From positions 399,001 to 463,000 of the forward strand of contig NW_027248399.1 in assembly GCF_041260155.1 (NCBI RefSeq): a stretch of DNA of 64,000 bases, given 5' to 3'. Position 1 is the stretch's first letter. Every line of letters begins with the position of its first letter. A model generated the notes under the pieces. The model was given only the letters and a program-made list of their open reading frames with translations. It made no database searches and had not been told where the DNA came from. A program made the position numbers and the translations under genes. Source of the stretch: Ptychodera flava (lineage: Eukaryota > Hemichordata > Enteropneusta > Ptychoderidae). Below, one piece after another: positions 1,181 through 54,500 of the stretch.

Positions 1181-13805
<12,625 letters not shown>

Positions 13806-24910: not shown

Positions 24911-24964
24911 AATATGAGTCTAATAACAATCTAAGTGAGAGGGGAAAGTTTTACACAACAGGAA

Positions 24965-25220
24965 GCAATCTCGAAATCTACGAAAGCCACCTTGATATCC
25001 CAAAACGAATTTTCCTTGTTACGCAAATATCTATCGGGAATGCTTCTTTGGAAAGTGTAAATAGTAGGTGTCATTATTTTCATGCATACTACGCTGAAGT
25101 AAAGTTATAAGGGTAATTTTTATTGTTCTCAATTGCATAAGTCCGCGCTTTATGTAGCACGCGAGTCAAGGGTCATGTCGTCACGATCCAGAGTTGACGT
25201 AATAATTTAAGTGATGAATT
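24965..25220 (+). repeat. Dispersed ~250-bp repeat of unknown class, copy 2
   Basis: Counterpart of 12105-12355 (landmarks 'aatctcgaaatct', 'ctatcgggaatgcttct', 'gtgtaaatagtaggtgtcat'). It starts about 55 bp after the satellite-type element ends, as copy 1 also adjoins such an array. Confidence 0.75.
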
Positions 25221-25935: not shown

Positions 25936-26247
25936 TTAGCTGTTAATGAGCACGTACAAGTCATGATAGATGTCATCGTTAGAGGAAGGTACTACTTTCC
26001 TGTCAAAGTTAGGAATATTGGTTTCTTGCATGGAAAGGTACTCGAATTCAAACGACGGTGCACCTTTGGTTCCTATATTTTGATCCTTGTTAAGATCTAT
26101 GGGTGTCTTTACCAATTCGTTCCCTGATTGATGTGCATTTACCCATCCATCGAGGTTTCCGTAGAAGCATCCTGAATACATCGCAATAAGTTGTGTACGA
26201 AAAGATCAGGTTCAAGTTCCACCTCTGAATCTTTCGGGTAACATTCA
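25936..26247 (-). CDS. VioB-like gene, last exon
   Basis: Begins after a CAG acceptor at 26248-26250 and joins the previous exon in phase (AG/T = Ser): ECYPKDSEVELEPDLFVHNLLRCIQDA, then, with one base missing, FYGNLDGWVNAHQ...LVKTPIDLN...KGAPSFEFE and a stop at 25936. VioB-family C-termini show the same order: a YP segment after DNP, a helix ending in FNG, and a closing P-x-FE. The polypyrimidine tract is weak. Confidence 0.7.
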
Positions 26248-29200
26248 CTGCTTGGATTATTTATATTTGCCAAATTTTGCCATGGTGAAGTGATGGAAAA
26301 GACCCTTTTAACTGGGTCTTAAATGATAATGAAAGGAAAAGACTTTTTTCTGATTGCTTTTAAAGTCTTCTCTGTCTGATATTTTTCATTTCCATAGTGT
26401 ATTAGGTTTTTTTTAGTTTGTGTTCTCCACTTTTTTCCTATACATTTTTGGTGTATGGGCTGGCTCTCGAATAAATAAATAAAACGTTAAAAAAATAAAA
26501 AAATAAAAAATGATACTCGTGACACCCTACATTACATCTGCAATGTACGTGCATACAGTGACACTGTGTGCTACTAAGTTGGATTGAGCGTTCATAACTC
26601 AAACTACATATTCAGAAGATCGCCCTCTATCTTTCTTGTGGAACTCAGACACAAATGGTCGAGAAACTTCTAGGTAGAGGGACTTAAAAGTTCACGATAA
26701 ACTTACGCTACGCAGACATTTTTTCTACCATTTTACGAGCAAGCAAACATACCAGGTTGATCTGACAAGACCCGAGCTAAAACGTGGGATTGTAGGCACA
26801 ACGGTTTAAGTTGATTTCCATTTTCATCACATTCTGAATAATAAGATTACCATTTCCAATGTAGTTGTAGTAGCATCCACGATAAATGACACCTTGATTG
26901 CCACAAAACTTGAGTCTTTATTCCACTGAATGTTTGTCACTTGAATGCTTGTGCGGATTGTGTAGACAAATGCATACACACCAATAATACGCACCATAAG
27001 AAACACGTAAACTGAAATATTACAGGAGAAAACACTACATAAGCATAAGATACGGTTTTGATAAATAGCGCCACCAACGCCCGCAATCAGAACATTTAAA
27101 GGCTTGCTAGCTTACTCTAAATTTTGATTCGGAAAGGATACTTCTGAGTACACAATAATAGGATACTATTTGTTTTAAAACTAATACTAATACATGCAAC
27201 GATGTTTCGGCGATGTTTCAATGTCAAGATTTGAGTCTAGATGTTATGTGTTCTACCAGTACGATTCTGAGTTCATGTCCGTTGTAAACATGTGACCGAC
27301 GCATCGATGGTAACATCGTAGCAAAACAGAACAATAAAACTCCTTGAAAGACATCAAACGACTCTCTATAGTGTTCACAAAATATACACACCTCTGTATC
27401 CGGATTAGCCGTGAACTTTATGCTACTTCTATCACAAGACTCTCGACTCAGGCAAAATCTCCTGAAGTTTCTCAAATCTCCTCTTCCTTTTCTTCTTGTA
27501 CTACGCATGCGCTAGAGCGCCCTCAACATCAAATTCTTAAAGCCAGACGGCAACATCCCGGCCCCTTTAATTATGCAGAGGTATACTTGGAGTAATTAAC
27601 ACCAATTTTAACCAATATATGAATAATTTGAACTTCCTTACATGAGTTGCCAAACATTTGGAAAATGTCATTACTGAATAAACTTGACTTCAACTTTAGT
27701 TAAACGACTAAGACTACTAGCATTCAAATTTTGAAATATAGAATAATTTCGTACTCTGATTTTATAGAATATCAAATGATTTGAGTAAGCAAATGTCTAT
27801 GAAAGAGTCATTTACACAGTCCAACGGATGTCTGATTACACACAAATAGTCTCTCTGGGTGTTCCTCTTCGAAGATGATATGTTGCAGTTTACTCCACAA
27901 TACAATAACATGCTTCTATAGAGTTTATACATCCGCCTCCAGAATAACACACAATTTAGTAATAGGACGTTCCAAGATCGAGGTTCTGGTTTTAACCTTG
28001 GCAATCCGTACTAGCCCTCTCTCATCAGTTAAAACATCTACTACTCTGCCCATCTGCCACTGATTCCTTGGCAAGTTGTCAACGACCAATACAATATCAT
28101 TCCTTTCAATGTTTTGTTCAGGATCCATCCATTTCTGACGCTCCTGAAGACAAGTCAGATACTCTCTGCTCCATCTTCTCCAGAACACATTAGCTAGGTG
28201 TTGAACTTGTCGCCACCTCTTTCTGGCAAAATTGTCTTCCTTCTGAAATACTCCAGGTGGTGGTTCCTGCCCTGACCGTAACAACAGAAGGTCATTAGGT
28301 GTCAGTGGATGAGGGTCTGTGGTATCGTTTGATACTCTAGTGAGTGGTCTACTGTTGATCACTGCTTCTACTTCACACATTAAGGTCTGTAACCCTTCGT
28401 CATCCATACAACCCTTTTGCTCTCTAAGTAAGCCATAGAGAATCTTTCGCACTGTCCTTATCTGTCTTTCCCACACTCCTCCATGATGAGAAGCATAGGG
28501 TGGATTGAACTCCCACTGTATATCTTCCTGACGTAAGCTGGAGTGGATTTGGGACTGGTTCCACTTCTCTATTCCTTCCTTGAGCTCTCGCTTTGCTCCA
28601 ATCAAATTGGTACCGTTATCGGATCTCATCTTACGAACAGGACCTCTTCTGGCAGCAAATCTTCTCAATGCATTTATACACGAATCTGTGTCAAGACTGT
28701 GAGCAACCTCAATATGGACTGCTCTAATGGACAGGCAAGTAAACAGCACTCCATAGCGTTTGACTGTGCTGCGCCCTCTCTTGATTTCAAACGGCCCAAA
28801 ATAATCTACTCCAGACTGTGAGAATGGTGGTTCTCCAATAACAAGTCTCTGTGCAGGTAGATCAGCCATCTTCTGTGTCATCAATCTGGCTCTATAACGC
28901 TTGCAAGTAACGCACTTACTTATTATACTTCTGATCTTGACACTGGCCTTTGGAATCCAATACCGTTCACGCAGTTTTGTCAGTGTGATGTTGGTTCCCA
29001 TATGTCCCATATGCGTGGCGATGAATGTCCTCCAATATCAAGTTAGTGATTGGCGAGTCTTCTGGTAGGAGGATTGGGTGTCTTCTTTCTATTGGGATTT
29101 CTGCACGAGACAGTCTTCCTCCAACTCTTACAATTCCATTAATATCTCGAATAGGGTCTAATTTATGATACTTGTATTCATAGTAGCTGCTGGCATCAGG

Positions 29201-32200
29201 GAAATGCCTTCCTTGTACATATTTGACTATTGCCATCTCTGCTGCTATCATATCTTCTGTGGCCAGGCAGTCTGGTTTCTGACTATTATTCTGTGAAGTT
29301 TTCTCACTTCCTCTTATCTGTTTCTTCAGATTCTCCTTTAGTCTCAGAATCCAGGCAACTGTAGTTTTCAGCCTTACCCAGCTTGAATATCTGCTTAACA
29401 GCTTATCCATTATTGAATGATGATCTTCCTTTATGACACTTGCAGCTACTCTTTTCACTTCTGGGTCATCTTGAGGCACAGCGCCACATAGCTCTGTCTT
29501 AGGCCACTTGGACTCTTCCATTATCACGAAGTCTGGTCCCTTTAACCACAACTTGGTCATCCTGTTGTCCTTGACATGTAACCCTCTCGAAGCTGCATCA
29601 GCTGGGTTCTCCTTAGTGTTAATGTACCTCCATTGTTCTGCTTTTGACCCTTCATGTATGGTAGCAAGACGATTCGCTACAAAGGTGTGAAATCTGCTTG
29701 TGCTATTATTGATATAGCATAACACTGACATGCTATCAGTCCAATAGATAACCCTGTCAAATGGATAGTCCATCTCTTTAGTAATCATGTGAGCGAACTT
29801 GACTGCAATGCTTGCTGCTGTCAATTCCATTCTTGGTATGGTGATCCTTTTCAAAGGTGCAACTCTGGCTTTACCCATCAATAGATTACAGTGTACTTGA
29901 CCTCTGTTGTCACTAAGTCTAGTGTAAGCAGCAATCCCTTAGCCGTTATCACTGGCATCAGAAAACATATGGAGTCGATAGGAAGCGATTGAGACATACT
30001 GTGGCTTTAGACTCCTTTGAATGGTGAGCTGTTCCAAGTGCACAATGTCTTCCAGCCATCTGTTCCACTTATTGAGGTCATCTGCATCAATAGGGTAATC
30101 CCATCCAATATTCTTTCTGCAGAGAGTCTGTAATAGCATTCTGGCTGGTAGCACAAATGGTGCAGCAATACTTAGTGGGTCAAAGACTGTGCTTATCATT
30201 GAGAGAATACCTCTCCTTGTATGTTGCACAGGTCTCAAGTTTATCCTGAATCAAAATGTGTCCGTATCAACCAACCATGCCACTCCAAGAGCTCTTTCTA
30301 TTTGCTGGTCACTGTAGTTAAGGTCATGCTGTAATGTTTTGGCCTTATCTTCTACTGGTATAGAGTCGTTAACCACCTCACTTGTACAAATCCACTTTGT
30401 AAGACGAAACCCACCTTTCTGACAGAGTTCTCTTGTTGCCTTGGCTGTTGCAACTGCTTGCTCATCTGTATCAACAGACTTCAGGAAATCATCTACATAG
30501 AAGTTTCTAAAGATGCTGTCCACCACCTCAGGGTCAAAGTCTGCCTTATTGTCTACTGCAGTCTGATGAAGTGCAATATTTGCACATGCAGGTGATGACA
30601 CTGCCCCAAACAAGTGAGCAACCATTTTGAAAGTTTTGGGTTCTCTGTTGAAGTCTCCCTCTGGCCACCAAAGGAATCTCAAACAGTCGGTATGATGTTC
30701 AGAAACCTTGACTTGGTGGAACATACCTTCAATGTCAGCCATCATTGCCACTGGCCCTTGCCTGAATCGCATCAGCACATTCAGTCAGGTTTGGTCCGGG
30801 CAGCAGTGTGTCGTTCAATGACACACCTTGACATCTTGCTGAACAGTCAAATACAACTCTTATTTTATGGGGTTTCCGTGGATGGTAAACGCCGTGGTGC
30901 GGTATATACCAAACCTTACATGTATTACTCTGATTATCCCCTTCTGTTACTTCTTTAGCATGACCACTCTCTAATAGCTTATTCATGAAATCTTTGTAGT
31001 CTACAGAGAACTTGTGGTCCCTCACCATCCGTCTTTTCAGTGCATTCAGGCGGTTTAGTGCTAAGTCTCTATTGTCTGGTAACACACCATCTTTCTTACG
31101 GAAAGGTAAATCCATGGAGTAATGACCATCTTGAAATCTAATTGACTTCATCATTTTCTCCCTGAACAACTTATCTTCCAGAGAAGGCTCTGTCCTGGTG
31201 TCCACACACCGTTCTGGAAAATCTAGGTTTATTGCATTTCTGACCAGTTGCTCCAATTGACTGTTTTCTTCTTAGACCCTTACTCTTCCTTTGTTGACTG
31301 CTAAACTACTTTTGGGGCCTTCCTCTCCTCTAAAGACATTCTATAAAATCCATCCAACTGCTGTTTTAGCTGCATAGGGACTCCCATGAGGTCCAGTCTT
31401 AATTGCCTTTGGCGAATATGCGTTCAGAACAGTGTTCCCAGTTAATAGTCCGATATTGGCATTCAGTGAAGGCACCTTAATTTCCCTTAGATGATCCCAT
31501 CTTTCGATGTCTTTCTGTGTAGGTATGTGTTCTCTTGTCACAGGATTCTGTCCTTCGTGTATAAGGGTGGCAAATTAATATAATCATGGCCATCCAGATC
31601 ACTGACAGTCAATCCACTGATCCTGTGGGTTGTGAGACTTTGTGGTGCTCCCATGGTGTCTAGTTTGACAGTCATTTTTCTTCCTGTCAATCCAAGCTGT
31701 CTAGCTAGCCCTTCAGTACAGAAACTGACATTGCTTCCAGTGTCCAAGAATGCATAAGTCTCCACAGCTATATTATTTTGAGCCCTGACTACAACTGGCA
31801 GGATAGCCATAGTGCACTCTCCACTGTCGCCGCCCCTGTAGAACAATGTATCTTGTCTGATGTGGTAATGTCTACACAGGTGAAGGCATTGACAGATGTA
31901 TTCTGCTGTGCACTACCATTTTCATTCTTTATAGTGGAATCATTATTATTTCTGTCTTCATTGTGAAGAATGGCTGGATGGTTTCCACTGCACTTGCTGC
32001 AGGACAGCCTGGTTCTGCACTGTCTTTTCTGGTGACCCTGCTTGAGGCATCCGTAACAAAGTCCCTTAGTTTTGACAAAGTCTAATCATACCTGAGAGGC
32101 TTTTCCAGAAACTGTAGACACGAGCTGAGAGCATGATTGAGATCACTGCAATAACTACAAGGTTTATCAAAGGCAATTTTCTTGCTAGTTTTCTTCTGCT

Positions 32201-35200
32201 CAGTTCTTGGTGACACTGCTTGTTCACTGTCTTTAGATAACGAACTGACATTACAAGATTTTACATTGGCTGCTAAGCTTCTTTCTCTATGCTGTCTACC
32301 CTTGGTCTGTCTGGCTGACAAACTTGGAACTTTCCTGAAGCAAGCATATCCTTCCCATACATTGGGTCTGTTGCTTTTCTTGCCTCCTTACGAACGAAGA
32401 CAACCAAGTCTTTGAACTTGACAGTGTTATCCCGATCTCTAATGGTCTGAACAATGTTCCTCCACTTGTCATGCAGCCAGAATGGAAGTTTACGTACAAT
32501 CTGTCTGATATTGTCCGCATACTCCAGTACCCTTGCCAGCATCCACATTGCCAACGGCATATTGACACTCCATGAGAAATACAGCATATTCGTCAAGTGC
32601 CTTAGCATCATCTGCCTTGATTGTAGGCCAATTTAATGCCTTCTTAATATACGCTGAAGCAATGACTTCTGCATTTCCATATCTGGATGTGAGTTCCTCC
32701 ATAGCCTTGGGATAACCTATATCACTGCTCAGGTGTGAATAACCCAATACAATTTTATGTGCTTCGCTAGTCGTATATTGTTCAAGGTAATTCATCCTTT
32801 CATCGTCACAATCTGTATAGGCTACTATTCTGGTAGTAAACTGACGTTTGAACCTAGGAAAGTCTATAGGGCTACCTCCAAATTTGCTCAACTCAATTGG
32901 TGGCTTTCTGAGTTCCTGTGTTATACACCGTGCTGTCATTTCATTGATGTTCTGTATATTTGGTTGCTGAACTGCTGGAGCTGCTAACTGTGTTGACACA
33001 GACACCCCCGGGTTGATGTCAATACTGTTTTGTTTGAATGTCTCACCAGATCTGTCTTTGTCTGACTGAGGCTGTATGGTCGGAATACCAAAACAGCTTT
33101 CATTTTCATTTTGTTCGAAACGACGAAGGACTTGTGTACGTGCATTACTAACAGCCATTTCCTGCTTTAGTCTGAATTCTTCTTGCAGTTTCTTCAGTTG
33201 TAACCTTGATAACTCTAACTCCAATTCAAGCCTTTTCCCTTTAATTTCTATCTGGAGCTGTTCCTCTAAAGCTGCACTACGTACTCTGACTTCGGCTTGT
33301 TTCTGCTCCTCTTGCAGTCGCAGCATAGATGTTGCAGAAACTCTTGACTCTCTACTGACCTTTGAACTATTGCTTTTGCTACTGACTTGAGATGCGCTGT
33401 CTCCTGGGTCTACACAACTGCTTAAATAGTTCTCAACAGACATCTGTAATTGTCTAACACGCTCACGCATGTTAGCGAACAGCAAACTATAGAAACCTTG
33501 GTCTTGATCTGACAAGCAAGAAGACAGCTCGCTTTCAGAAGTGAGATAGCCATCGTAAATTTGAAGAAGCTGCTTATGCTGTTCAACAACCTGTGATTTA
33601 TTTTTGGGCACTGTCAGTAAACTGGTCAGACTTCTCATAACATTTTCAAGCTCCTTTGTTGCTTGGTCATAATTTGTTAGGACTATATCACGCCTTGTTG
33701 GGGTGGACTGAACTTCATCTGTAGCTGCTGTAGTAATGTACTGCTTAATGTAACAAATACCCGGTAGTACCACACCTATATGAAATTCAACTATATATTT
33801 CTTTTCCTTTTACTAAAACAGAACTGAAGAAGTTCCCTTGTATCTTCTCACCAAGCTTACACTCAGATTTCTGCTTTACCTTGCTTTTACGCTTGGATTA
33901 TCAATTATTGGCCAGATCCCGTCCTCATGTAGGGATACTCTTTCACCCGTGAAGTGAAATGGTACGTTACATCTGCGATGCACGTGCATATAATGGCACG
34001 GTGTGTTACCGTTGTCACAGTATCTACGAGTGTACTTCTCTGAATACGCGATTTCACAACTGTCAGTACTAAACATGTCATCTTCGTGTGTGGAATGTAT
34101 CAAGTTCTGATCCACTACAAGTCTGTAGCCAATCACTACCTCCATAAATTAAAATAGTGAGATAGGTTACCGTCAGAGTCGTATGGTTGTGTTGGAAAAC
34201 TACCCTCTCCTTGCTCCGTTATCAGCTCTGTAGCTCGCCTAGCGTCATCGATGCTGGTGACAGCGAATGGCTTTTCCAAAGCTTTGCTGTACCAGTCTTC
34301 TTCAGTAACCTGTGTCGTTCCATCGCCACACGCGAAAAGACTTGAATTAATGCTTGCGTGGTAACTAAGGGCTTTCGATATTCTTTTGTAGTAGAATTGT
34401 CCGATTGTACGATTACTCAGGTATGTTAAAGGGCCATTATTTGTAACTTTTGACCATTTTTTACCTCGGAAAATTCCATGTTGGAGGCTCATATTTGTTG
34501 CAAAATGTTGTTTTACGAAGAAACAAACATGATTAGTGATATATAGCCACATAAAACTGCTAATTTTGTTCAAACGTGTCGCCCTTCCGAGCTCGTTTGT
34601 TGACGTCTGGCATGCTCAGCGTGCTGGGGAGAACAAAGATAATGTTGACGCCGCGATCACGCGATATGTACAAGTTCACGTTTATTGCGGGATCAAAACA
34701 ACATTGCGTCGTGGATTGCCAGACATCTGGCTACGGAACGTGCTCGGACAATGGACTACGACGTAAGTACCGGGCATAAGTAATGAATATTTATTTTGAA
34801 ATTGCTGTAAATGGCTCGAGCAGGTGCAGAAGAATGCCTATGTTGCAATCCGCGTGTCAACAGAGTTTGTATTTCTGTCCGGACAAAAATTGAAATTTTC
34901 GTTGTAAAATCACATGTTATTTAGTTGTAGGGCATGTAATGTTTCCGAACAATATGCGATTCTATGTTATTTGACAGGCTATTCAACATGAGCCAGTGAT
35001 CATTTCAATCAAAACTAACGGAAAAATCTCCAGAAGATACAGCTAATGGAACTTTAATGCATGGGCATAGGATTACTTACATGTAAAATCAGTTTGAACA
35101 TACTTTTTAATCAGACCTGGTCAGAAAATTGTGAAAATTGCCAAAATATGTTTCGCATTTGATTAAGTTGAAATTTATCATAATATATTACCTAAGTCAG

Positions 35201-38200
35201 GTCACGTGACCAAAATCTGTTATTTTCCCGCCAAAATTGTATATTGCAAATAACTGAACATTCCAACCGCTAAACATCAAAATATTTAAAATATTATTAC
35301 CAATTTATGTAAAATGGGATAGAAACTTGTGTTAAAACTACTGGCAGATGCAAAATTATTGAATTTTGAATTAGATTTCTTCACAAGAATCAACTAATAC
35401 AATATTTTGACGTTGTTTCCAAAAGTGCAGAGAAAATCAAGAAAATTTAACGGGTTACGGTTGGAATATTAAAATTAATAAAAGACGTAAATTTTGGCGG
35501 GAAAATATCAGATTTGGTCACGTGACTCAACTCGTCAAGATTTAGGCAGACATTTTTTTAAAGAATTTAATAATTTCAATAATTAGGCCAAATATCAATC
35601 AAATCTGGTGGTTTTTAAAGATAATTGATCATTTTCTTACTTTTTGGCTTGATGGGTACAAACACCATGCATTAACTTACTTGAGTATGATGCCTCAGTG
35701 GTGTTTCCGAATCTGTATCGAATTCGATGTCTTGGACCGACGACAGAACTCTCTGACGTAACTTGATCGGCAGTGTGTCGTCAGGTTCCTCAATTTTCAT
35801 GAAAACGTCTTCTATAAGACCTTTGGTAAGTCTTCCAAGAGACACGGTGAGGTGAGGATGAACTCCGCCAGGGAGTCTGGCAGGGTACGTTGGTACATGC
35901 TTCTTCTCGTTTAGAATCGGAGTTCCACATATACTTCGCAAAATATTCGCTACCATTGCCATATGAAGCATTTCCTCGGTTGCAATGCTACGAATGATAT
36001 TGGATATTGCTTTGTTATATCCTTTCTTGATTGACAGCCATGCCGTTAGATATGGAGGAATAGTCGACAGCTCGAGTTCAAGTGCGTCTGTAAATCGCGT
36101 TTAAGATCTTCTAAGCTGGGCTTTGGAATGTCACCAAGTTTAGGGTCGTCGAGCCATTGCAGAATAGCTCGTTGCTTCCTCCTCGACAGGTCTCTTGTGA
36201 CCGGCATGAATTCTGGGTCATTCATTGACAGCGTCATTGTCATCTTGAACATCCTCATAGTAAGCCATGTTGATTATATTGTTCATACCTGGGAACATGT
36301 TGGAGTACATTTTAAATATTGGGTAAATATCTCGATGCCAAGTCGGCCCACCTGGTAAAACTTCAAAGCTGTTATACAGAAATACCACTATCGGAAGATC
36401 AGAAGTGAGTGTATCTTGCCCGTGAACGCTGATCTCGTATAAGTATATTTGTCCGTCTATAATTTCCCTGGGATTGTCAGGATCGTAGCCGACGAATTCA
36501 AACACAGCTATGCCATTTTCGTTACTTTTTGCTACATCAGTAAAATGAACTGCAGTTGGTGGTTGGTTAAAAGGAACGTGGAGACCCTTTCCGCATCTGG
36601 AGTACATGTGCTTCTTTTTCACCGATTTCGCCGTTTCTATCTCTAATGGAATCCCTTCAAATGGGTGTCCAAACTTGTGAATGCATCAACTTTCCACGAA
36701 TCTCCAGGATCCTGACGGAACACTCTATCCCCCATAAAACCGACAGCCAAACCGTCAAGTCTCTCTGAAAGTACAATCATTTCACATTCATGAGATTTAT
36801 TATTCAGCTGCCGTATAAACAATGGTCGGACAGATACTTCTTTGATTTGGTTAAACGTCAGTGTGGTCGTTGAGGGCACTGTTATGATTCCAGCTGTGTC
36901 TTCGTACCATAGGTTACTGGTATAATTGATTTCATCCAATATTACAACTTCTGTATCACAATTCAAAAATTGAGTCGGCTGATGCAGCGGGTAGGCAAGC
37001 TGCAAAGTCTGCGTGACGTCAGGATCGGGAAATCCCTGTTCATTGTATGGTAGACTATTTCCAAGGTCAATTAAGATCTTTCCACGAGTTGGAAAAAGTC
37101 GAAAGTTGGCCATTCCAAATCTTTTACTTGAGGAAGGTGGATGCATCTGTCGATGGCGTAGACCATGCAATGGTTCTGCTGGGCCAGCGACACCTATGCT
37201 GCCAACGATACGACCTGTACCAAACTTTCCACTTTTTGAAAACGCTTCAAAATTGTCCAGATTGAATTTCACTGATAGAACATTCTGCACCTCGCTCTGC
37301 AAACTCAGTTGTCTCATCTCCTTTACTAAGTGTGAGTGGCTTTCGTCCTCTCCGTGCCAATCGACATCGACAAGAAGGGAATAAAAATCAGCCCCGAGGT
37401 GCCCGCTGTGTTCACGTTTAGATGTTTTATGATAAGAGTTTGACATCGGCGCCTCCACAAATTTTCCAGAGAAAGCACCTGGTACGTGTAGAGAAAGACC
37501 AAATATTGTCGGTACAGCAATGTACGCCGTATCGATGTCTGCAATCTTTGCTTCGGGACGATCCACTTACCTACAGTCATATGTAAACAATGCAACTGTT
37601 AGAGTTAAAACAATAAAGATGAAAGCGGGGAAGAATTATTTAAATCACATAAATATTTTTGACATAAAATGATTAATTTTTAGTGTAACTTTTGCGATAT
37701 AGTTGGCTTTTCTGACACCAAGAATTTGTGATTTGAGACTGTCAAGCCTTCAAACTATTGTGGACATGACCAATAACAATAATAATCTAGGTCATCATAC
37801 TTATCGTTAATGTCGACTATCATCATCATTTTAATTTGTTGTGTTATTGCATTCTACATTTTCGAAGGAACATCGCCACAATAACAAAAAGCATTGTATC
37901 GAAAAGGGAAAAATTTTCATGGAAATTAAACGTTTTCCTCAGTGACAGGATTATACATAATAGCATCAACACTATGAAAACAACGTCTATCTTGGACCTG
38001 TTCCAAGGCAATGGAATTGGTGACAAGTTCTTGTGTAACGGGTAAATCCTGAAGCAGAGATTTACGCTGTATTCTGCTGCGTACTATTTTTCTTTCGTCG
38101 AGCATAGAGTAACTTCAAGGCTTTGATTTCAGTGTTTCTCGCGCAGGTGAGCGTGGTTTGGCGGGAGAGTCATCCTTGAAATAATTATCCGGAAAAGTAA

Positions 38201-41200
38201 ATAGCTTGCAGGCGTTCACCCTTTACTGCGTAGACTCTTGGTACGTTCACCATAAATGGCATGTAGTTTGCGCTCACCGTAGGCCTATTTAAGTACATGT
38301 AAAACAGTGTTGCATGAAATGAAGATAGATAGGTAAACAAGGCGTTACTTTATTCGTCAATGGTAACTAAGCGTATTTCTAGTGCAAGTAGTCTGTATGT
38401 AAATCTACTACTCACTGAATACAGGCGTTCCTTAATCAGGCGATCCGTTCTTCTATGCGTGGAGCAGTCACCATTTGTATAACAGACAGATGTTACTTTG
38501 CAGTCTAACAGCTGGAAGCACCCTGAACCTTCTGGATTCCATCCAAGAATGCTGGGATCGTCTCTAAATCGTTCATCAAATGTTTTGATGTCGTAGTTCT
38601 CACAAAGGTTGTTTCGCGGTCGGTGAGTCGAACCAGAACGTTCCGGAAAAGTGCAGTCTCGGCCAGTCTAGGTATGAGTGACTGTTCTCTATAAAATGAT
38701 GTGCATTTTAAAATAAAGTGAGTAACTAAATTTTGGTTGTCGGAGACGAATTATACTAGGGGACAGACAACGAAATACTAGGAGGAATACGGAAGAAAGC
38801 AGTGTTTGCATAAAGGTGACGCCTATATGCCGATGGGACCGTAAAACGGCAGGCGAGTTTAAGACGGAAGTATGAATTTTTGAAATATGTACCATATGGT
38901 CACAATTGTCAGAAATACAGATACTTCAGATCCATAGTAAAACGACGTTACGTGTGGGTGAAAACCATTTACATAGTTGTTGGTTATTCTTATTATAAGA
39001 TAATTTGGGATCGCTAGAGGGCGTTCGTGGAGTGAGCATCTCAATCGCATCGGCTCCAGAAGAATTTCGAGATTTTTCGCACTAGGAGAGAAACAACAAC
39101 TTTTTGGAGCACTACCAGTTCTTTAAAGTGTTTCTGAAGCCATTTAAAACACCCATTTCAACATGGGTGTCTCAACTGAGCAGTGGCGGACAAGAATTGG
39201 TGTCTTTGACCACCAACCATGTGCGATAGGTAACCGCCATGACGTCAAAATCAGTGGTAATGGTATGTGTGCCGCCCTGCGCTTGTACCACTGAGCATGC
39301 TACTGCGGTCGGGTGACATCGAGAGCAACCCTGGTCCCAATCCTGGCAGTCAACAACCAAGTGAAAAGCGGGCAACAAGACAAACAACATTACTTGGGGC
39401 ATATTCGACATCGGCGAAGGACAGTGGAAACTTTGAACTTTCCGATATCATGCGGGAATTACGCAACGTGAAAGCAGACCTTGGCAGTAAAATGGACAGA
39501 ATGTCATCCGAACTGAATACAAAAATCGACAACTTAGTGCAAGATATTCAGAGTGTGCAACAAGAACTTGGAGAGGCACGTAGAGAAACTGCTCGTCTCG
39601 CTGAAGAAAATAAAGCCCTAAACGACCAAGTTTATGACTTGACAAATGAATTAGACGCCATGAGAGGCCAGATGAAGAGGGACAATCTAATCTTCAAAGG
39701 CATAGCTCAAGATGAAAACGAATCATGGGATCAGTCAGAAGCTAAGGTAAAATCATTTATTACCGATAAGCTTGGGATCGATGGAAGCGATATGAGTTTG
39801 ACAGGGTTCATTGTCTCACAAATGCCCATCAAGACCACAGCCAATCATCGCTAAATTTTCCCGCCACCAGCAACGCAAACAGGTGTTTGAGGCGGCCAAG
39901 AATCTGAAGGGCACACAATACAGAATATCGAGGATTTTACGCGAAGAGTACGTGACGTGAGGAGAAAGCTCGGACAGTATCTTGTATCGGCTAGAGCTGA
40001 AGGAAAGAGAGCGTTTCTGACATTTGACAAATTGAAGATCGATGGAAGAACATTCGTCTATGACAGTATACAAGATGATATTCGCCCATTGTCGAGAGCA
40101 GAGTCGACGAACAGCTAGGAAGACGGCCAAGGCCAAGGTAATTACACACACCGAAGAGAATCATCACCACATCCACATCCGACGTTTATACAGAATTCCT
40201 CGTATAGAACTTCAACCAAAAATCAAATTCAGTTCATTTGTTGGAATATTCACGGTCTCATCTCAAAAATGTGCGATTTAGATTTCATTTCTTATTTGCA
40301 ACAATTTGACGTTATCTTCTTGCTTGAAACCTGGATAAAACATGATTCACGTTGTACAATTGATGGGTTTAGTTCATTTAAGAAGGCTGGTTGCAAGAAA
40401 TCAAAATATGGAAGACATCCAGGTGGTATTAATGTATTTTTTAAAGACGCTCTTTCTATGGTTGTAAAAGAAATGTCGAGTGTCTCTGACAATATTGTCT
40501 GGATATCGCTTTATTGTAATCATGTCGAGAAGTCACCTTTAATTGTAATTGCAACTGTTTACATTCCTCCTGATGAATACGACAAAAGCAATAGTGATAA
40601 CACACTTGAAATTTTAGAGTTTGAGTTAGCTAAGTATTCTAGCAAGTTTCCAAATTCACGTTTTTACATCTGTGGAGATTTCAATGCTCGTACAGCTGAC
40701 AAGCCAGATTGTGTAAATGAGGATGTAACAAATTTTGTGCTTCCAATTGACTTTGTATCATCCCTCTCCAACATTGATGTTCACAAACGGGTTTCAAGCG
40801 ATAAGACTGTAAATACATCTGGCCAGAAGTTTCTTGATTTTTGCAAGCTACGGAATTAAGTATTGTCAATGGTAGGCTTTTCAGAGAAATAGGAAGCGGT
40901 GATTTTACGTACGTTAGTCACTCCGGATGTAGTGTCATAGACTACCTTATCACCAATGTATGTAATTTCTCAGATATTGACAAGTTTTACATTGACAAGA
41001 GAGTGGAGTCTGACCATCAACCCCTTGTATTTGATATCAATATACCACGAGAATGTCATGTCAAGGCATCAGTAAATACCATCGATGGTAACCTTAGTAC
41101 GGGAATTTTAACTCATTCTTATAATAGATTTTTCTGGGAGAGTAGTAAGCAAGAATCTTTTTAACAGTATTGGAATTCAACTCGAATAAGGGACCAGATT

Positions 41201-44200
41201 TGTGAATTCAATGCACTTGTTGATGATTCATCAATTGAACAAGCTGCTGAATGTCTTTTAAATATGATCAAGTCTGCTGCAAGTGAAATGAAGCGTACTT
41301 ACAATTGTAAACAAAGGTCAACAAATAATGAATGTCAAGGTAATACCTGGTATGATAGCGACTGTAAGAGAATGAAGCGTTCACTCAATTCAAAGTTGAA
41401 TGGTTTTAGGAATAATAGGTCAACAAACAATTTAGAACTATTAAAAAAGTGTAAACAGGAGTATAGAGAGCTGATTAACGATAAAAGAAAGCTCATAAAA
41501 GTAAAAATCTCGAAAAGTTACAACAACAGCCAAGAATGTGAACTCAAGAGAATTTTGGTCTCTTGTTAAGGAATGGTCTCTGTTAAAGAAAATCAGCTCC
41601 AGTGTCCCAGAATATACAAAATGATGATTGGTTTGGGTACTTCTGAACATTGTTAAATACTCCAGGTTTTGAAAACGAGGATTTTGTTCCATTTCACGAA
41701 GAAATCAGGGATTTTGTTGAAACTGTTGAAAATGAGGACAATTTTTTTAAATATGGATGTAGATGACTTGAATTTGCCAATTGTAATTGATGAAGTAGAC
41801 CATTGTATCAAGAAACTTAAGTGTGGTAAAGCCCCAGGTCTGGATGGTGTATCACCAGATGTTTTCAAGGCTTGTACACCTATTGCTAGACAAATGATGT
41901 GTAAACTTTTTAATGCTGTTTTAGACTCTGGTCACTTTCCGGCTGCCTGGGCGCAAGGTATTATAACTCCAATTTATAAAAAAGGTGACAATAATTGTGC
42001 TGGCAACTACAGAGGGGTAACTCTGCTTCCTATTATGGGAAAAATTTTCTGTAGTATCCTTGATAACAGACTTCGCATATGGCTCGAGAAAATGTATCCA
42101 ATTGTTGATGAGCAGGCTGGCTTTAGGAAAACATACTGTACTTCAGACAACTTATTTATTTTATCCACCATTATTTCAAAGTACTTGGCTCACAAGAGAA
42201 GTAGACTATATATAGCATTCATCGACTTTGAAAAAGCATTTGACAGAATTGATCATTACTGTATGTTTTATAATAGCTTATTCAGTGTGGGATTTCTTGT
42301 AAAGTTTATAGAGTTATTCTGTCAATGTATAGCAATGTAAAATCATGTGTCAGAACCCCGTCAGGTTTTACAGATTTCTTTGATTGCAGTTTTGGTGTAC
42401 AACAGGGATCAGTATTGTCACCCCTTTTATTCACACTTTTTGTAAATGATATTGGAATTACTCTAGCTGATACGCACCAGTATTCTGGTGTCGAAATTGG
42501 TATTTTAAGAATTTTGTATTTGCTCTTTGCAGACGACCTTACTATGATCAGCAGTTCAAAGATAGGATTGCAGCGCTTGTTTGATCAATTGTATCTTTAT
42601 TGCTCAAAGTGGAAACTTACTGTTAATACCAGTAAAACCAAAGTTATAGTTTTTAGGAGGGGTGGTGGTCTTCGAAAGTATGAAAACTGGTCGTATAACA
42701 ACCAGCCTGTTGCTGTAACTTCTTTTTATAGCTATCTTGGCATTGTCCTATCCTGGACCGGTCGTTGGTTTCAAGCACAAAAAACTTTGAGTGAACAAGC
42801 TAACAGAGCCCTGCATGGTCTGATCAGTTGTCTTTTTAAGTTTGGTCCACTGCCTGTTACTATTGCCTTGAAAATATTTGACTGCAAAATACTCCCCATT
42901 TTACTTTATGGTGCTGAAATCTGGGGCTTCCACCATGCTCCAGATATTGAAAAAACTCACAATAAGATACTGCGCTATGTACTTCAACTATACAGCAATA
43001 CATCCATTACTGCTATGAGAGGGGAGTTGGGTAGACCAACAATGACAGTAAATATTTATTGTAAAATTATTAGATACTGGTTAAGAATTTTGAAAATGGA
43101 TAGAAATAGAATTGTATACCGATGCTACGAATTTCAAAAAAGCAAGATTGATGTTAATAGGTATGACTTATGGGCCAGGGGAGTGAGAGGCTTGCTGCAG
43201 AGTTATGGTTTTGGCGAAGTCTGGGAACAACAAGGGGTTGGTAATGAAACCTTGTTTTTACGGCTTTTTAAACAAAGGTGTAGTGATATCGATGCACAAT
43301 GCTGGCTGAATGATATCAACAATAGTAGCAAACTTTATCTTTATTCTACCTTCAAAAAAGAGCTGGTATTAGAGCCATACTTGACCTGTATAGATAACCC
43401 TGTTTTCAGACATGCTCTTTGTAGTTTTAGAACATCATCACACACTCTGAGGATCGAGACAGGTCGTTGGAATAATATTCCAAGACAAGATAGACTATGT
43501 GAGTTGTGTAATTTGCAGGCAGTAGAAGATGAGTACCATTTTCTTCTCGTATGTCCGACGTATAATGACTTGAGAGCTAAGTACATGTCTTCCTATTATT
43601 TTAACCCTCCTGTAATGTACAAATTTAAGATACTTCTTTCATCACAAAATACTGCCACATTGAGGAAACTGAGTAAATATATTTTTCTAGCAACAAAACG
43701 TAGGAAAGAACTTACCATCGATGCGTAAGTTAAGCATACAGTTGTATTCTCTGATGCTTATTTATTTGTAAATAAGTTATTCTTTTTTTTTCTCTCTCTC
43801 TGTTTTTGTGGATGCAATTATTGCATTGACTAGCGATCTGTAAGCAACTTTACTGCTACTATTTGTACATATTGGCCGGAGGCCACAAGTACTGAATAAA
43901 CTGAAATTGAAATTGAAATAAGATAATTTGCACGCCACAAACTTATGTAAATATCATGTTCTTAGGTGTTCGGTTTTCTTTCCGTAAACGAACTTCAACA
44001 AACTGTGGCGTTGTGATATAAGCGTTACTAGTGCGGATGCGGATTTTAGAAGTGACACATTTGAACTTTTATTATTATGAGCCTGTTGTTTGTACTTCAA
44101 ACTAACTGGATATAACAAAAAACCAGCCTTTCACAGACATGGCCTTCCGTTTTACCTTATATGGCGCTGGTAGTCTTATTTCGTGAAAACTGCTGCTACT

Positions 44201-44527
44201 GTCATAAGTAAAGAGAGGTATTCAAGGCCCACCGACAATTTGTCATATAGACTTCATGCAATAACGATCTGACATTTAAACACCAGCAAAGCAACTGCCA
44301 GTTCTGAAAGGTGATCACGTGACTGATCGGATGACTCACCGAAATATTAAAAACTAACTTAACACTGTGGCATAGTAGATTTGAATTGCAGAGATGAGTG
44401 ATTCAAACTTACCTGGTTTTTGGGTGGAAGCGTTTCGTACCCATTCTGCTTTGTCAAAGGCAGCGATACTTTGAATAACAGCAAGAACATACCATACCAC
44501 AGAGCCGAGTTGATTGACGTATATCAT
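25936..44527 (-). CDS. Secreted VioB/RebD/StaD-like protein (indolepyruvate-imine dimer / chromopyrrolate synthase family), 5 exons
   Basis: Exons in transcription order: 44527-44413, 38667-38416, ~37570-35681, ~34415-33880, 26247-25936. The product of about 1,000 codons follows bacterial VioB from end to end: WPRLHFSGTF...SPTA (VioB DFPRIHFRG...APTAN), GWNPEGSG...VTSV, AKIADIDT, RIVGSIG, LIDLGNSLP, then the ferritin-like domain with LELELSTIPPYL, ATEEMLHM, EQGEGS and HYF..FMEVV, and a C-terminal DNP and APSFE. In bacteria these haem/iron enzymes couple two tryptophan-derived imines on the way to violacein or staurosporine/rebeccamycin. Exon 1 adds a hydrophobic leader (MIYVNQLGSVVWYVLAVIQS), absent from VioB, so secretion is likely. 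About six small frame breaks occur, most explained by one lost base; ferritin-type ligand motifs are kept. Introns hold a full LINE and a BEL/Pao fossil. Substrate in an animal is unknown. Family assignment is firm, function inferred. Confidence 0.85.
26523..26573 (-). pseudogene. Relic resembling part of VioB-like exon 4
   Basis: On the minus strand QCHCMHVHCRCNV mirrors PCHYMHVHRRCNV of exon 4 (33967-34010); about 40 of 48 bases agree. No reading frame continues on either side, and an A-rich (AATAAA)n-like run (26470-26517) follows it. It lies inside the last intron, so it looks like a decayed partial exon duplication. Confidence 0.5.
27925..33773 (-). mobile_element. BEL/Pao-type LTR retroelement fossil
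   Basis: A fossil of a BEL/Pao retroelement lying on the minus strand in the last intron of the VioB-like gene, same orientation as the gene. Parts from its 5' end: Gag-like region with long charged helices (~32.3-33.8 kb) and a Cys-rich patch, aspartic protease (DTGS, ~31.4-31.8 kb), reverse transcriptase (YVDDF, ~30.3-31.2 kb), RNase H (WTDSMSVLCYI, ~29-30.2 kb) and integrase (zinc-binding head, then the D,D,E core with SDNGTN, ~27.9-29.0 kb). The order protease-RT-RNase H-integrase and the RNase H style are those of BEL/Pao. It is broken, with roughly eight breaks, and I could not find a pair of long terminal repeats; the 5' side comes within ~110 bases of a host exon. Most domains remain easy to read, so it is not very ancient. 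Confidence 0.92.
33880..34415 (-). CDS. VioB-like gene, exon 4 (end of ferritin-like domain)
   Basis: Encodes NRTIGQFYYKRISKAL, a segment ending LFACGDGTTQVTEEDWY, then DDARRATELITEQGEGS, DGNLSHYF, and after one missing base FMEVVIGYRLVVDQ, finishing GIWPIIDNPSVKA with an AAG/GTAAAG donor. In VioB the corresponding motifs are VTDQGEGG and HFQRLREM. A Cys/His-rich insert (PCHYMHVHRRCNVPFHF) is not in bacterial VioB as I remember it. The acceptor at 34416-34417 is the best candidate but leaves the phase to exon 3 unresolved. Confidence 0.75.
34666..34762 (+). other. Possible first exon on the opposite strand, unidentified
   Basis: A GC-richer patch (34570-34770) in VioB-like intron 3. The plus strand reads MYKFTFIAGSKQHCVVDCQTSG and runs into a good donor (ACGAC/GTAAGT). 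The Cys spacing near the N-terminus faintly recalls the start of a THAP finger, but the rest of the domain is not seen, so this stays unassigned. Confidence 0.25.
35200..35527. repeat. Inverted repeat with GTCACGTGAC ends
   Basis: GGTCACGTGACCAAAATCTG...TTTTCCCGCCAAAATT on the left and AATTTTGGCGGGAAAATATC...GATTTGGTCACGTGAC on the right; the inner arms also share ATTCCAACCG / CGGTTGGAAT. Arms about 75 bp, spacing about 170 bp. Probably a miniature DNA element in VioB-like intron 3; no coding sequence. Confidence 0.7.
35681..37570 (-). CDS. VioB-like gene, exon 3 (main N-terminal domain and first half of ferritin-like domain)
   Basis: A ~1.9-kb exon. It encodes RPEAKIADIDTAYIA, GADFYSLLVDVDWHG, GRIVGSIGVAGPAEP, GKILIDLGNSLPYN, a beta-rich middle, the segment with GPTWHRDIYPIFKMYSNMFPG, and the ferritin-like start LELELSTIPPYLTAWLS...SIATEEMLHMAMVANIL. 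The donor is ACTCAA/GTAAGT at 35680. Three frame changes lie within it (before FEGIPLEIE, before NDPEFMPVT, before ALELEL); two fit one missing base, the third fits one extra or two missing. The E..E and EE..H motifs are typical iron ligands of ferritin-like folds. Confidence 0.85.
38416..38667 (-). CDS. VioB-like gene, exon 2
   Basis: Joins exon 1 in phase (G/AC = Asp) and encodes DWPRLHFSGTFWFDSPTA, then, one base out, NLCENYDIKTFDERFRDD, GWNPEGSGCFQLLDCKVTSV. This matches the family's N-terminal signature (FPRIHFRG...TAN, later YNAAGNNHF...ATVSHV in VioB). The GTGAGT donor at 38411-38416 is good, but the phase with exon 3 does not close without one extra base or an alternative donor. Confidence 0.8.
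38996..39008. repeat. Left target-site duplication of the LINE
   Basis: ATAAGATAATTTG, identical to 43918-43930. A perfect 13-bp duplication brackets the LINE and shows that both its ends are present. Confidence 0.9.
39297..40119 (+). CDS. LINE ORF1: 2A peptide, coiled coil, RNA-binding domain
   Basis: Starts MLLRSGDIESNPGPNPGS; an open frame without ATG runs from 39267. A long coiled coil follows (RELRNVKADLGSKMDRMSSE to ELDAMRGQMKRDN), then the L1-ORF1-like RNA-binding region RDNLIFKGIAQDENESW. After a frame change near 39820 it continues AKFSRHQQRKQVFEAAKNLK...REVRDVRRKLGQYLVSARAEG...DKLKIDGRTFVYD. Such proteins bind element RNA as trimers. The Met just four residues before the 2A core is odd, because 2A activity normally needs about 18 or more upstream residues; an upstream ATG (39239) lies in another frame, so a lost base before 39297 is likely. 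Confidence 0.85.
39312..39338 (+). promoter_or_regulatory. 2A ribosome-skipping peptide (GDIESNPGP)
   Basis: Encodes the canonical D-I-E-x-N-P-G-P core. In viruses and some LINEs this peptide makes the ribosome skip the final Gly-Pro bond, releasing the upstream product. Here it would cleave off a short N-terminal leader of ORF1. Confidence 0.85.
40190..43728 (+). CDS. LINE ORF2: AP endonuclease and reverse transcriptase
   Basis: The endonuclease part shows FICWNIHGL, FLLETW, GGINVFF, ATVYIPP, CGDFNAR and SDHQPLVFDI, all family-typical. The reverse transcriptase shows KAPGLDGVS, GNYRGVTLLP, DEQAGFRK, FIDFEKAFD, QQGSVLSPLLF, LLFADDLTM and LGIVLSWTGRW. The C-terminus has a CELC...EDEYHFLLVCP zinc-like motif. 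Breaks: one base lost near 40848 (FC/QATELS), an in-frame TAA at 41161-41163, a frame change near 41540, another near 41640, and one near 42320 (ELFCQ/MYSNVKS). The last 467 codons are open and include FADD. The protein nicks target DNA and copies the element RNA in place. Confidence 0.92.
43918..43930. repeat. Right target-site duplication of the LINE
   Basis: ATAAGATAATTTG, identical to 38996-39008. Confidence 0.9.
44413..44527 (-). CDS. VioB-like gene, exon 1 (start and signal peptide)
   Basis: ATG at 44527-44525 opens MIYVNQLGSVVWYVLAVIQS, then IAAFDKAEWVRNASTQKP and a strong donor (CCAG/GTAAGT). The segment LGSVVWYVLAVIQSIAAF is a good signal peptide or membrane anchor. The phase fits exon 2 exactly (Gly-less join giving Asp-Trp-Pro-Arg). 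Another frame also opens with a hydrophobic start (MFLLLFKVSLPL) but does not fit exon 2 in phase. Confidence 0.65.
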
Positions 44528-50049: not shown

Positions 50050-51560
50050 CTTTGTGAAATCAAATCATGTTCACAACATTGCTGCCTCCAGATAGGGGCC
50101 TAATGATCTCAGTTCTTACACATACGGTTAAATAGAATGTATAATCCGAGGTAGATAAATGGTACATGAATCGGCTGTGGCTGTGGTGGTACGATAGGAA
50201 TGGCGCCCTCTTTTGGTATGTTGTTAGCTGTTGCTATGTCTCTTTAAAAATGTTTTATACAGAGGTTAGCGCAATAAATAACTCCACTGAGACAATAAAA
50301 AGAAATTAAGCAATAACTACAGAAAGATGACCCGAGAAATGTTCCTGCAAACTTGTTTAAGCGATTATCGAATCCGAAATCGATTCTAGCACCGAGCCTA
50401 GCTTCAACTCGTCGCTTGTGGTCGCGAACAACATATCGTCAGTCTATGGAGATTTGCATCTTCTGCGGTTGAGGAAGGTCCTGGTTGATGATGGGTAAAA
50501 TTCCCAATTACCTGAAGTTTCGGAGGCTGGCACTAGTGGCAGCAAAGCGAACGAAGCCATGTAGATTTTGTGAGATCACTGTGCCTGACACTTCGCTTGA
50601 TCAACGAACAGTGATGCCAACGTCATGCATGATGGTTCCATTCGATGTTCCAATGGTGACGGAGGTGTGACGAAACAAGTTCGCGTCCAAGTTTCGTTCC
50701 ATCCATTGCTGACGACACGATTTGTTTGCGACGTTGCGACGCGACGCGGAGAACATATTCATTCTTCTCTCAGCACTGTTCAGAGACGAAGGTCCTCTCT
50801 TATGCTCTTTCTGATGGAACCAAAACTTCCTAAAGTCAGCGGCATGCTGTGTTTCTATATCGAAATCGCATGATGAAGTCGACAAGTTTGACGTTTGGTA
50901 GCATTTGGATGCTAGGTTGTATCCTAGTAATTCAGATGTTTCTCATCGCCCCCGGTGATGCAAAAATCATCCAAGGGCATATGAAAACGGCTTCGGTAAG
51001 TTTCAGCATTTTTACGTCAATGCGCCAGGTGTCAGTATTTCTAATCACAGGTCCATCACTGACATCAACTTGTAAACTGGCTGAGTGGTAGAGTAGATGG
51101 CGAACTCCACTGGGATAATACGTTTACATAGAGGGTCCAATTTTATCACTGTACAAACTTCCTTCGCCTGAACTAGCATCATTGATTTCTCGGCAGTTGC
51201 ACGGGACACAAATTACAAGTTATCAGATTAAGTCAGTTGTTATATTACCACAATAAATAACATAGAGGTAACATATTACTGTACTTCCGGCATCCAAAAC
51301 CAATCAACATTGTTCATTCAACATGATCTGAACTTTGAAAAAGTCACGACTCCAAATTTCCCCAAACACAAACGGGACTTTGGTATGATTGACATATGTA
51401 TTTCAACTCGTTACTGACTTTGTATACTCCTCTGTTTTCTCTCCTTTTCAGAACTTCAATTTCATTGATAGGTTTTGTTTCCAGCCAAATGAAAAGGGAA
51501 CACTCCACTATGAAATTAAGTACAAAGCCGTAAGTATCACATTATACCGATAATGTAATT
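50050..51560 (+). repeat. Tandem duplication, left copy (TMEM145-like promoter to exon 2)
   Basis: Homologous to 62476 through the window end, about 12.4 kb apart. It covers upstream DNA, 5' UTR, exon 1, intron 1 and exon 2. Upstream and intronic DNA differ by many substitutions and indels, but 50683-50831 is identical to 63100-63248 (149 bp). Confidence 0.9.
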
Positions 51561-54500
51561 CTCTGACCTTGTACACCAAGTTGTCTTTGTGTTTAGCCAT
51601 CTAGTAATTCACACCTTGCAAACTTTTAATTTCTATATGAAATTTTGAAACCAATTAAATAATATTGCTTAGTGTGAAATCTCATTGGAAATATGCTTCT
51701 CTTACAAACAACTGTTACTACCGGTATGTTTGTTGGCGCAAAGCTATTTCAGTCTGTGTGAGCCAACTTCAAAATGTTAAACGTATTCCATAAACTGATT
51801 AGATCCATCTGCAGATTTTATCAGTATATGTCCATGGTTCAAAGGTCATGTGATGGGGATGCCGTACCAAATTGCCTTTAAGTTTTGCTAACTATGAACT
51901 GAATGGTGCCCAGAGCTGTTATCAGTAAACTGACAGTCCCAGTGATAATGCAGTGCAGTGGTGTGTTGAGGTGATTTTGTTTACATCCACCACATCTTAG
52001 TCTGAGGGGTCAACTTGTTGATATTTTGATAAAGGGATGGGGCAAGAAATTGTCTGTAGGACATGGTCCAAGAAAGTAATTTTTTTAGTTTGACCATCGG
52101 GAAATACAAAAATGGTCCATCATAACCACTAGAATCCACTGTACTTTACCTTCTCATTGCTGTAGGAAAACTGTTGTTACAAGTTACTGATGTTTAATGA
52201 TGAACCTGACCAATGGCCGTATATCCGAAAACATGAAGATACCTTGGTAGGTGTTTTGCTTGCTTTTAGTGAATCAAATGATATTTAAGTAGCTTCCTTT
52301 TCAAAAGTTAAGCTATTTCAATTCAAATGTCTATATATGTATATCTAGCATTTTATAAAATTTGTGGAAATAAGTTTTCAGGTCACTTAGAGCGCCATAA
52401 TATTTTTTCAGAACTTTTGTTTTGTGGTTTCCCTACACTTTCTGCATTGAATCCCTACACTGTAATTTAATGCCAAGTATTTAGCATATCAACACCACCT
52501 ATATGAGTATAATCTACATTGTTATTGTTGAAAATTGTATTCAAGTCCGGACTAGAATTCATTTTTAAACAATAAACACTGATCACTACACACATATATA
52601 CAAGCTGTGTTTGACAAAAAGAATACTCAAAATTTCAGCATGACAAACAGATAGGGTCAGACGCAGTATTTGATATACAGAAGCAGAATACTGAAAGACT
52701 TGCCACAAGTGACAGCTTATGTCCCTTTGATATGTACCAGTATGCTTATGATATTATGATCCTCTAGGCCAATGCCATGTTTTAGTGTACTACACAGCTT
52801 TTTGACCTTTTATTATTTACATCACTCATTCTCTTCAGACTTGTGGTGATAAGAAGGAAGCAATTCCAGGGACTCACAATTCCAAGCTGACATTGACTGA
52901 TGGGTATAATGGATGCAAGAAAGTGACTGACTCCGATGGCATTGAGGTAATACAGTTTTAGGTCATAAGTTAGCTTCGCCGGTTTGGCTCAATAAAGTTC
53001 TCTTTGATACAGGCAAATTTCATGTATTACATTTACATTGTACTGGGATATTGTATTCATTGTGCAAGAACTTTCCAAACCTTCCTATGCCAACAAAAAG
53101 ATATCAGAAATATCATGAATGAGTCAGAGATTTTTTGGCCACTGCTTCCTCATTACAAGCATTTCAAGCTTTGCATTCATGAAATGTGTGAGACTGTAAT
53201 ACAGTGGTTTTGATATCTAATGGAATAGCTATAGTAACTTGTTGTGTCAGTGCAAGATGGTGGTAACGGACATTTTGGTAGAAGTAATCATCATGCTGAA
53301 AATGATCTGAAATTACTTGTTACATTGACTTAAATTCAAATAGAGTATATTCTTTGTGTAGAGCCATTATTAAGTATTTATTAGAACAAGTTTTGCATTC
53401 AGATTTTGGAATCTAGTATTAATCCTTTGAGTGCTGTAATTTTTCCCACCAAAATTTTAGTGCAACATTTCACCAATTTTTATGAATTTATCTGTGAGTC
53501 TTTTATTAATTTTGGACAAAATGGACATCATTTTCATTGGCTACAGTTTTATCAAATTTCTGTAAAAATCTGAAACAAATTGACTAATAGGTATTTTTAT
53601 AAAGGTGACAAAAATTGACTTTGGCACTCAAAGAGTTAACAAACTGAAACTGACTTCCTAGCGCCCCTGTTCAATTATCAAATTTCTAGTTATGACCGTA
53701 CAAGACAAGTGAATTCCAATTGGTAAGATCGTTTTGTAAAGTCAACCATCAGCAATGTCTGACGTCTTGTTGACTGTACTCACCATTATTGTATGAACTC
53801 TTTATTTCAGTGGATGCACTGTGTTGGAGGTCGCTCCTTTCAAACACCCCGTGCACGTTGGTGGTACTTGGTGATGAGTAACTGTTATTCTGATGTAGCT
53901 ATGGACTTTGATTATAACATTACTATGACCAACGGTGTCAAGTTGTGGGATAAACACTTCTCAGCTGATGAAAGATGTAAGTATTGGGAAAGTTATCGCA
54001 ATACTAGTGATGAAAACCTATCGCATTAGTGCTCATTAAATTAAAGTTAAATGAAACTTGATGATACTGCTTTGATTCATTTTATGACATCAGTAAATTG
54101 AAAAAAAATCATGATCTGTGAAATCTATTAATGGTTAAACTGTAAAGGGCACAAAGTTGGCCATTTTTTGTGAATTTTGTTTGATACGAGTATTGTTTGA
54201 CATGTTGAAAGATACTCAATGAATGGGTGACCATTCATACCGGTATATTCGATCCTGGTTTAAGACACGATAAATGAAACCATTGCGAGAATGAATAAAC
54301 GATCCATTTATTCATTCTCGCGATGGTTTCATTTATCGTGTCTAAAATCGGGGTAGGATATATGTACGGTCACTCATTCATTCAGTATATTTTAACATGT
54401 CAAACAAAACATGTAGTATCTCGTATCAAACAGCATTCATGAAAAATGGCCAAGTTTGTCCTTTTAAAGTAAAACAGACATCACATGTATGATGCAGTCT

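Follow-up and report, generated by a model that had tools for sequence, protein, structure and literature searches.

A candidate secreted ferritin-like protein of the VioB/RebD superfamily encoded in the genome of the hemichordate Ptychodera flava

RebD and VioB use iron and an oxidant to couple two amino-acid-derived imines. A stretch of 64,000 nucleotides from Ptychodera flava (NCBI RefSeq assembly GCF_041260155.1, contig NW_027248399.1, positions 399,001 to 463,000 of the forward strand; hereafter the window) appears to hold a split-up, probably secreted animal version of this enzyme family, which is known mainly from bacteria making coloured, bioactive amino-acid-derived compounds. The question raised by the locus is what kind of protein such a gene encodes and whether it can still work. 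Homology, exon structure, retained residues and host flanks were observed directly. For the explanation as a whole, a secreted ferritin-like oxidative enzyme of an old animal branch, the chances are judged to be about even.

Five exon blocks were found on the minus strand between 44527 and 25936, and gave about 1,030 residues when read in the homologous frame:

44413 to 44527, minus strand: exon 1, ATG and a signal-peptide-like hydrophobic stretch; donor CAG/GTAAGT
38412 to 38688, minus strand: exon 2, where the N-terminal domain begins (SYLDWPRLHFSG..GWNPEGSG..ERLYS); 3' end at 38412 or 38416; the frame changes once, near 38614
35681 to 37565, minus strand: exon 3, bulk of the N-terminal domain, followed by the ferritin-like domain up to its middle (LELEL, EEMLH); three frame changes, near 36673, 36244 and 36097
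33880 to 34446, minus strand: exon 4, with the remaining half of the ferritin-like domain (TIGQFY, EQGEGS, HYF..FMEV) and also a Cys-rich insert; 5' boundary uncertain; the frame changes near 34149
25936 to 26247, minus strand: exon 5, encoding the C terminus (ECYPKDSEVELEPDLF..APSFEFEY..LINS stop); the frame changes near 26190

The encoded order is a hydrophobic, signal-like beginning, then about 580 residues forming the N-terminal domain, and a PF12902 ferritin-like domain. An earlier annotation made from the letters of the window (the sequence-only reading) had recognized a VioB/RebD/StaD-type gene by the motifs WPRLHFSG..SPTA, GWNPEGSG, AKIADIDT, RIVGSIG, LIDLGNSLP, LELEL, EEMLH, EQGEGS and HYF..FMEV, and all of these were confirmed in place and order. 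The ferritin-like domain that it proposed was matched by Pfam far above chance, at 35675-36100 (expectation value (E) 3.4e-35, 122.4 bits) and at 34139-34615 (E 1.7e-12, 48.1 bits), with both scores above the gathering cut-off of 22.3 bits. Public databases list PF12902 proteins for fungi and perhaps invertebrates. The five blocks of its exon model stood, but six frame changes and an insertion-like last intron had been missed. Its GT-AG introns were borne out in part. With splice sites read by eye, intron 1 joins cleanly and intron 4 is in phase, but introns 2 and 3 are in phase only if a weak donor is used or one base is wrong. No second copy of the gene was found within the window. Just before exon 5, positions 26519-26575 resemble the Cys-rich insert of exon 4 near 34000 (63% over 19 residues, E 0.002), perhaps as an exonised repeat.

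Relatives were searched for in prokaryote, plasmid, phage and viral collections. Scanning of bacterial and archaeal genomes turned up 74 loci, and bacterial proteins of the same two-domain plan were homologous to the window protein from end to end. The best blastp matches of the read-through protein were 11 fused bacterial proteins, with E values of 6e-92 to 9e-116 and 29-33% identity over 850-1010 aligned columns. These are single open reading frames (ORFs) of about 890-1030 residues from Undibacterium, Acidobacteriota, Myxococcaceae, Bacteroidota and Verrucomicrobiales (loci L005-L008, L010-L015 and L018). They resemble the window protein in being a single chain of N-terminal domain and PF12902 domain with a short linker, and differ from it in having no introns and in keeping the His of IELEH, which is Leu in the window. 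Most of the non-fused loci consist of two neighbouring genes, a hypothetical protein and a ferritin-like protein; such split pairs contain the same two parts and are homologous to the window protein along both, but are encoded by two genes. We know of no reaction for this widespread, uncharacterised fused/split family. Similarity of the window protein to the family is full-length and extends to family-specific conserved columns. Among 77 bacterial rows, 109 columns reach a conservation of 95% or more; the window is identical at 83 of these, compared to 56-59 for four VioB proteins.

Two trees were calculated. The first had 82 rows (the window, 11 fused, 66 split and 4 VioB), with six N-terminal ORFs lacking a paired ferritin-like ORF left out; for the second, more careful tree of 37 rows, the 66 split rows were cut by hand to 25 and VioB was left out. 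The 11 fused rows formed one clade in both (support 100 and 100/100). The window lay on a long branch; the best careful tree put it beside this clade with a support of 19/84. Fused and split rows are told apart by 30 columns, of which the window was fused-like at 9, split-like at 10 and neither at 11. A grouping of the window with the fused clade had been suggested by two hand-picked motif resemblances only, and was dropped in view of this balanced count. The window protein is best described as a deep, unresolved branch.

No closer bacterial donor than the Myxococcaceae locus L005 was found with a query of 839 residues in four phyla, namely Myxococcota (phylum of L005; 195 genomes, 15 matches), Acidobacteriota (L008; 247 genomes, 9 matches), Bacteroidota (L011; 296 genomes, 6 matches) and Pseudomonadota (L060; 349 genomes, 10 matches). 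In Actinomycetota, the phylum of L020, PF12902 was matched at E 0.001 in 33 of 396 genomes, 27 of them over the cut-off. Pattern-based scans, which can miss distant relatives, found none in viral contigs, and no relative of the Undibacterium protein was present in the phage records. The N-terminal domain had no Pfam match in five proteins: the window protein, one bacterial split relative, and the N-terminal parts of one VioB and two fused proteins. The partner or N-terminal domain of about 600 residues (e.g. L022:5998-7908) is apparently an unrecognised domain common to the bacterial family and VioB/RebD. PDB entry 3hl1, 'Ferritin like protein', matched in its ferritin-like domain both the window piece (E 4e-5) and the fused-family profile (E 1.5e-12), with no match to the N-terminal domain. 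At L060, L065, L074 and L064, two split pairs were seen in tandem within one bacterial locus.

Is the gene then a VioB, RebD or StaD in the narrow sense? The proteins used for comparison came from four genomes also carrying split pairs (VioB), from a cluster on a Pseudonocardia plasmid that also holds genes for tryptophan halogenases, a glycosyltransferase and a P450 (RebD), and from Streptomyces clavuligerus (StaD-like). We take these names to apply from gene context and general knowledge of the enzymes, the records titling the RebD and StaD-like proteins 'ferritin-like domain-containing protein'. Each VioB gene is adjoined by an ORF which, judged by a motif that we assume to be diagnostic, looks like a flavin adenine dinucleotide (FAD) enzyme. 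Direct blastp of the window protein gave E values of 6e-5 for RebD, 5e-4 for the StaD-like protein and 0.007-0.28 for the four VioB, against 1e-115 for the Myxococcaceae fused protein. VioB was rejected as nearest relative on these values. In the 82-row tree, a quick one, the window had joined VioB in a basal position within the family (support 96); the tree carried a long-branch warning, and this placement was not trusted.

Significant similarity of exons 2-5 to VioB/RebD/StaD, which the sequence-only reading requires, was nearly absent in pairwise comparison and was regained only by way of the intermediate bacterial family. In profile-profile comparison the fused bacterial relatives matched an alignment of RebD, StaD and VioB with 99.9% probability over 795 columns. 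The N-terminal ORF of the window reached 0.3% with the VioB profile, 30% with the RebD/StaD/VioB profile and 99.6% with the fused family. These comparisons support membership of the window protein in the VioB/RebD/StaD superfamily, with the same two-part architecture; the narrower assignment is not supported, at an E value of 6e-5 at best compared to 1e-115. Because the window protein is far nearer to uncharacterised bacterial proteins than to VioB, RebD and StaD, indole dimerisation cannot be transferred to it.

A true animal equivalent of these enzymes would form dimers from imines derived from tryptophan, yielding a bisindole or, together with halogenation, a bromoindole. It would share the superfamily and the architecture, and would have the N-terminal and PF12902 domains fused in one polypeptide, as is the case in VioB, RebD, StaD and, with read-through over the frame changes, in the window. 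VioB and RebD also share with the window a Leu at the site of His635, in the first ferritin-like helix. However, the uncharacterised bacterial proteins are much closer, and the segment that the aligned VioB and RebD sequences have inserted between their first and second ferritin-like helices is absent from the window. Outside 25.9-44.6 kb, 120 of the 126 listed ORFs were scanned for families; no amino-acid oxidase or halogenase family was among the 7 found, although animal genes need not cluster. Such an equivalent is considered quite improbable.

The next question is whether the gene belongs to the animal at all. The following features were found within and around it:

27925 to 33809, minus strand: retroelement ORFs (integrase, DUF5641), which we take to be BEL/Pao-like, inside the insert at 26250 to 33901
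39261 to 43728, plus strand: element in intron 1, putatively long interspersed element (LINE)-like; reverse transcriptase in ORF 42277-43728 (PF00078, E 2e-14)
1156 to 1491, plus strand: receptor-kinase-like host exon in the flank, alone E 0.0012 and under the Pfam cut-off; nearby kinase ORFs up to 7.9e-17
50870 to 57362, plus strand: TMEM145/GPR180-like host gene in the flank, individual exons placed by eye

Bacterial contamination or a chimeric contig might be suspected from the fact that every relative found is bacterial, though the collections searched were those named above. It is extremely unlikely in the light of the retroelement-bearing introns between the exons, the kinase and TMEM145 exons on both sides with no bacterial operon context, and an identity of at most about 33% over long alignments to any bacterium found. 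As the introns contain retroelements, the first exon is signal-like and the flanks hold kinase and TMEM145 exons, the gene is almost certainly resident in the animal genome. The sequence-only reading had come to the same view from the GT-AG introns, the mobile elements in them and the signal-peptide-like first exon.

As to function, the residues E634, E667, H670, EQGEG and H853..E859 were found to be retained in the alignment, across the four helices, and we presume them to be metal ligands. The hydrophobicity of exon 1 is in line with a secretion signal, with a best Kyte-Doolittle mean over 15 residues of 2.09 within the first 45 residues compared to 1.56 elsewhere. Cysteine was found at 14.6 per 1000 residues, compared to 6.3 for the split and 1.1-13.0 for the fused rows; this is about twice the bacterial mean and fits an extracellular protein. 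The mechanism proposed starts from an animal-resident gene that would have been taken from bacteria or inherited via an old eukaryotic branch. Its product would be a secreted, single-chain protein of the VioB/RebD superfamily, with a PF12902 domain keeping residues of metal-ligand type for a putative di-iron-type site. With O2 or H2O2, this site would most likely oxidise or couple an imine- or enamine-like metabolite derived from an aromatic amino acid, outside the cell. We lean towards the gene being functional in the living animal and, if it is, an oxidative enzyme acting on an aromatic metabolite is slightly favoured.

Gene neighbourhoods of the bacterial relatives were inspected as well. 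At two of six sampled fused loci, both from Undibacterium (L006 and L007), genes of the EboD and EboE classes adjoin, and L006 also has the EboC class; 10 of the 81 listed neighbour ORFs of the fused loci were scanned, and the Ebo names there are putative ones given by Pfam class. Of the four plasmid split-pair loci, L001 and L003 carry annotated ebo genes, L004 two ebo classes and L002 none. L001 also holds a LodA/GoxA oxidase and a tryptophan 7-halogenase. In Nostoc, ebo genes are reported to take part in bringing an indole-phenol precursor into the periplasm, and in Pseudomonas, mutants in an ebo-bearing cluster were vulnerable to nematodes (PMC6282210).

In exon order, the homologous reading is interrupted between exons 4 and 5 by the following feature:

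26250 to 33901, minus strand: insert with both 11-bp direct repeats, by homology breaking one ancestral exon

The exact 11-bp direct repeat has copies at 33891-33901 and 26250-26260, which flank a 7.6-kb insert bearing the retroelement. Reading directly from one copy into the other gave one open in-frame sequence, IIDNPSSECYPKDS, in which the NP-to-YP spacing holds the same four residues as most of the bacterial rows aligned. When 20,000 pairs of random points about as far apart were drawn, only 4 shared an exact 11-mer within 20 bases. Since the repeats lie at the interruption of the homologous reading, the joined sequence is open and chance repeats of this kind are rare, an exon probably received an insertion of about 7.6 kb, between what are now exons 4 and 5. 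Intron 4 lies between the two copies of the repeat, and its GT and AG sites match in phase; they could remove the insert by splicing, at the cost of three extra residues. The insert may thus serve as a new intron or may disrupt the gene. Located within the last coding part, it puts the 3' end of the gene in doubt, and the gene as a whole may or may not be intact.

Several observations weigh against a working secreted enzyme of the kind proposed. Among the neighbour ORFs of split loci (85 scanned of 138 listed, from 24 loci) 4 matched the DHQ (dehydroquinate)-synthase (EboD) class, 3 EboE, 2 EboC, 2 EboA and 1 LodA; as only 4 of the 85 are of the EboD class, the ebo association is a hint and not a family rule. 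N-glycosylation-type sequons are scarcely enriched in the window protein (5.8 per 1000 compared to 4.8-4.9). Leu takes the place of His635, a residue with 96% conservation across the bacterial family. When five fused rows were left out one at a time, they kept 105-109 of 109-111 conserved columns, more than the window. Of the 26 conserved columns lost from the window, 7 fall in exon 5, itself poorly aligned, and a C-terminal helix of about 20 residues present in the bacterial proteins is apparently missing in the alignment. The six changes of homologous frame listed above leave no exon chain open as it stands, the 7.6-kb insert lies in coding sequence, and the frame shifts are uneven, the first-copy TMEM145 and kinase exons being without a visible break when inspected by eye.

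The latter observations would be expected of a recently dead copy, that is, a family gene disabled by indels and by the retroelement-bearing insertion, with a working paralogue perhaps located elsewhere. The frame changes, the direct repeats exactly at the break in the homologous reading, the apparently missing helix, the poor conservation of exon 5 and the unbroken neighbouring exons all fit such a copy. Yet the segments between the frame changes, as trimmed, contain no stop, the 83 strongly conserved columns are kept, and the in-phase GT-AG sites could allow the insert to be spliced out at the cost mentioned. A further point comes from the start of the TMEM145/GPR180-like gene, which is duplicated in tandem (50197-51563 and 62606-63966, copy 2 being partial). 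The 5' region and exons of the two copies are nearly identical (two ungapped blocks of 96% and 98%), whereas identity over the whole stretch is 83%, the introns having diverged. Each of the two visible exons in copy 2 is one base shorter in a homopolymer. Such gaps in otherwise conserved exons indicate that the assembly probably carries indel errors; they look like those of long-read assemblies, and may explain many of the frame shifts in the gene. Most of the frame shifts are more likely to be assembly indels than signs of decay. A dead copy is a substantial but on the whole doubtful explanation.

A fuller version of the enzyme reading is that the animal keeps a working, secreted VioB/RebD superfamily enzyme from an ancient bacterial transfer, that its product is a dimeric aromatic compound for defence or pigmentation, and that the retroelement-bearing insertion has given the gene one new intron. 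The animal would then encode its own access to chemistry attributed to bacteria. In all its parts together this is unlikely. Should the gene work, a route attributed to bacteria may supply some animals with indole- or aromatic-derived compounds of their own making, and it would be necessary to re-examine claims that symbionts produce them. The gene is also an entry point to a widespread bacterial family, half of which is a domain without a Pfam match here. In one open-access library no description of an animal member was found among the matches listed, apart from a putative PF12902 label given to Schistosoma vesicle proteins in a proteomics study, which may denote ordinary ferritin (PMC7563238). 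PF12902 proteins are known in a fungus (PMC4417212).

Scans of the window with Rfam, at the gathering threshold, and for tRNA genes gave no match. Two repeats were observed outside the gene: a pair at 12086-12355 and 24949-25220 (275 bp, 84% identical), and a tandem array at 15260-16128 with units of about 225 bp.

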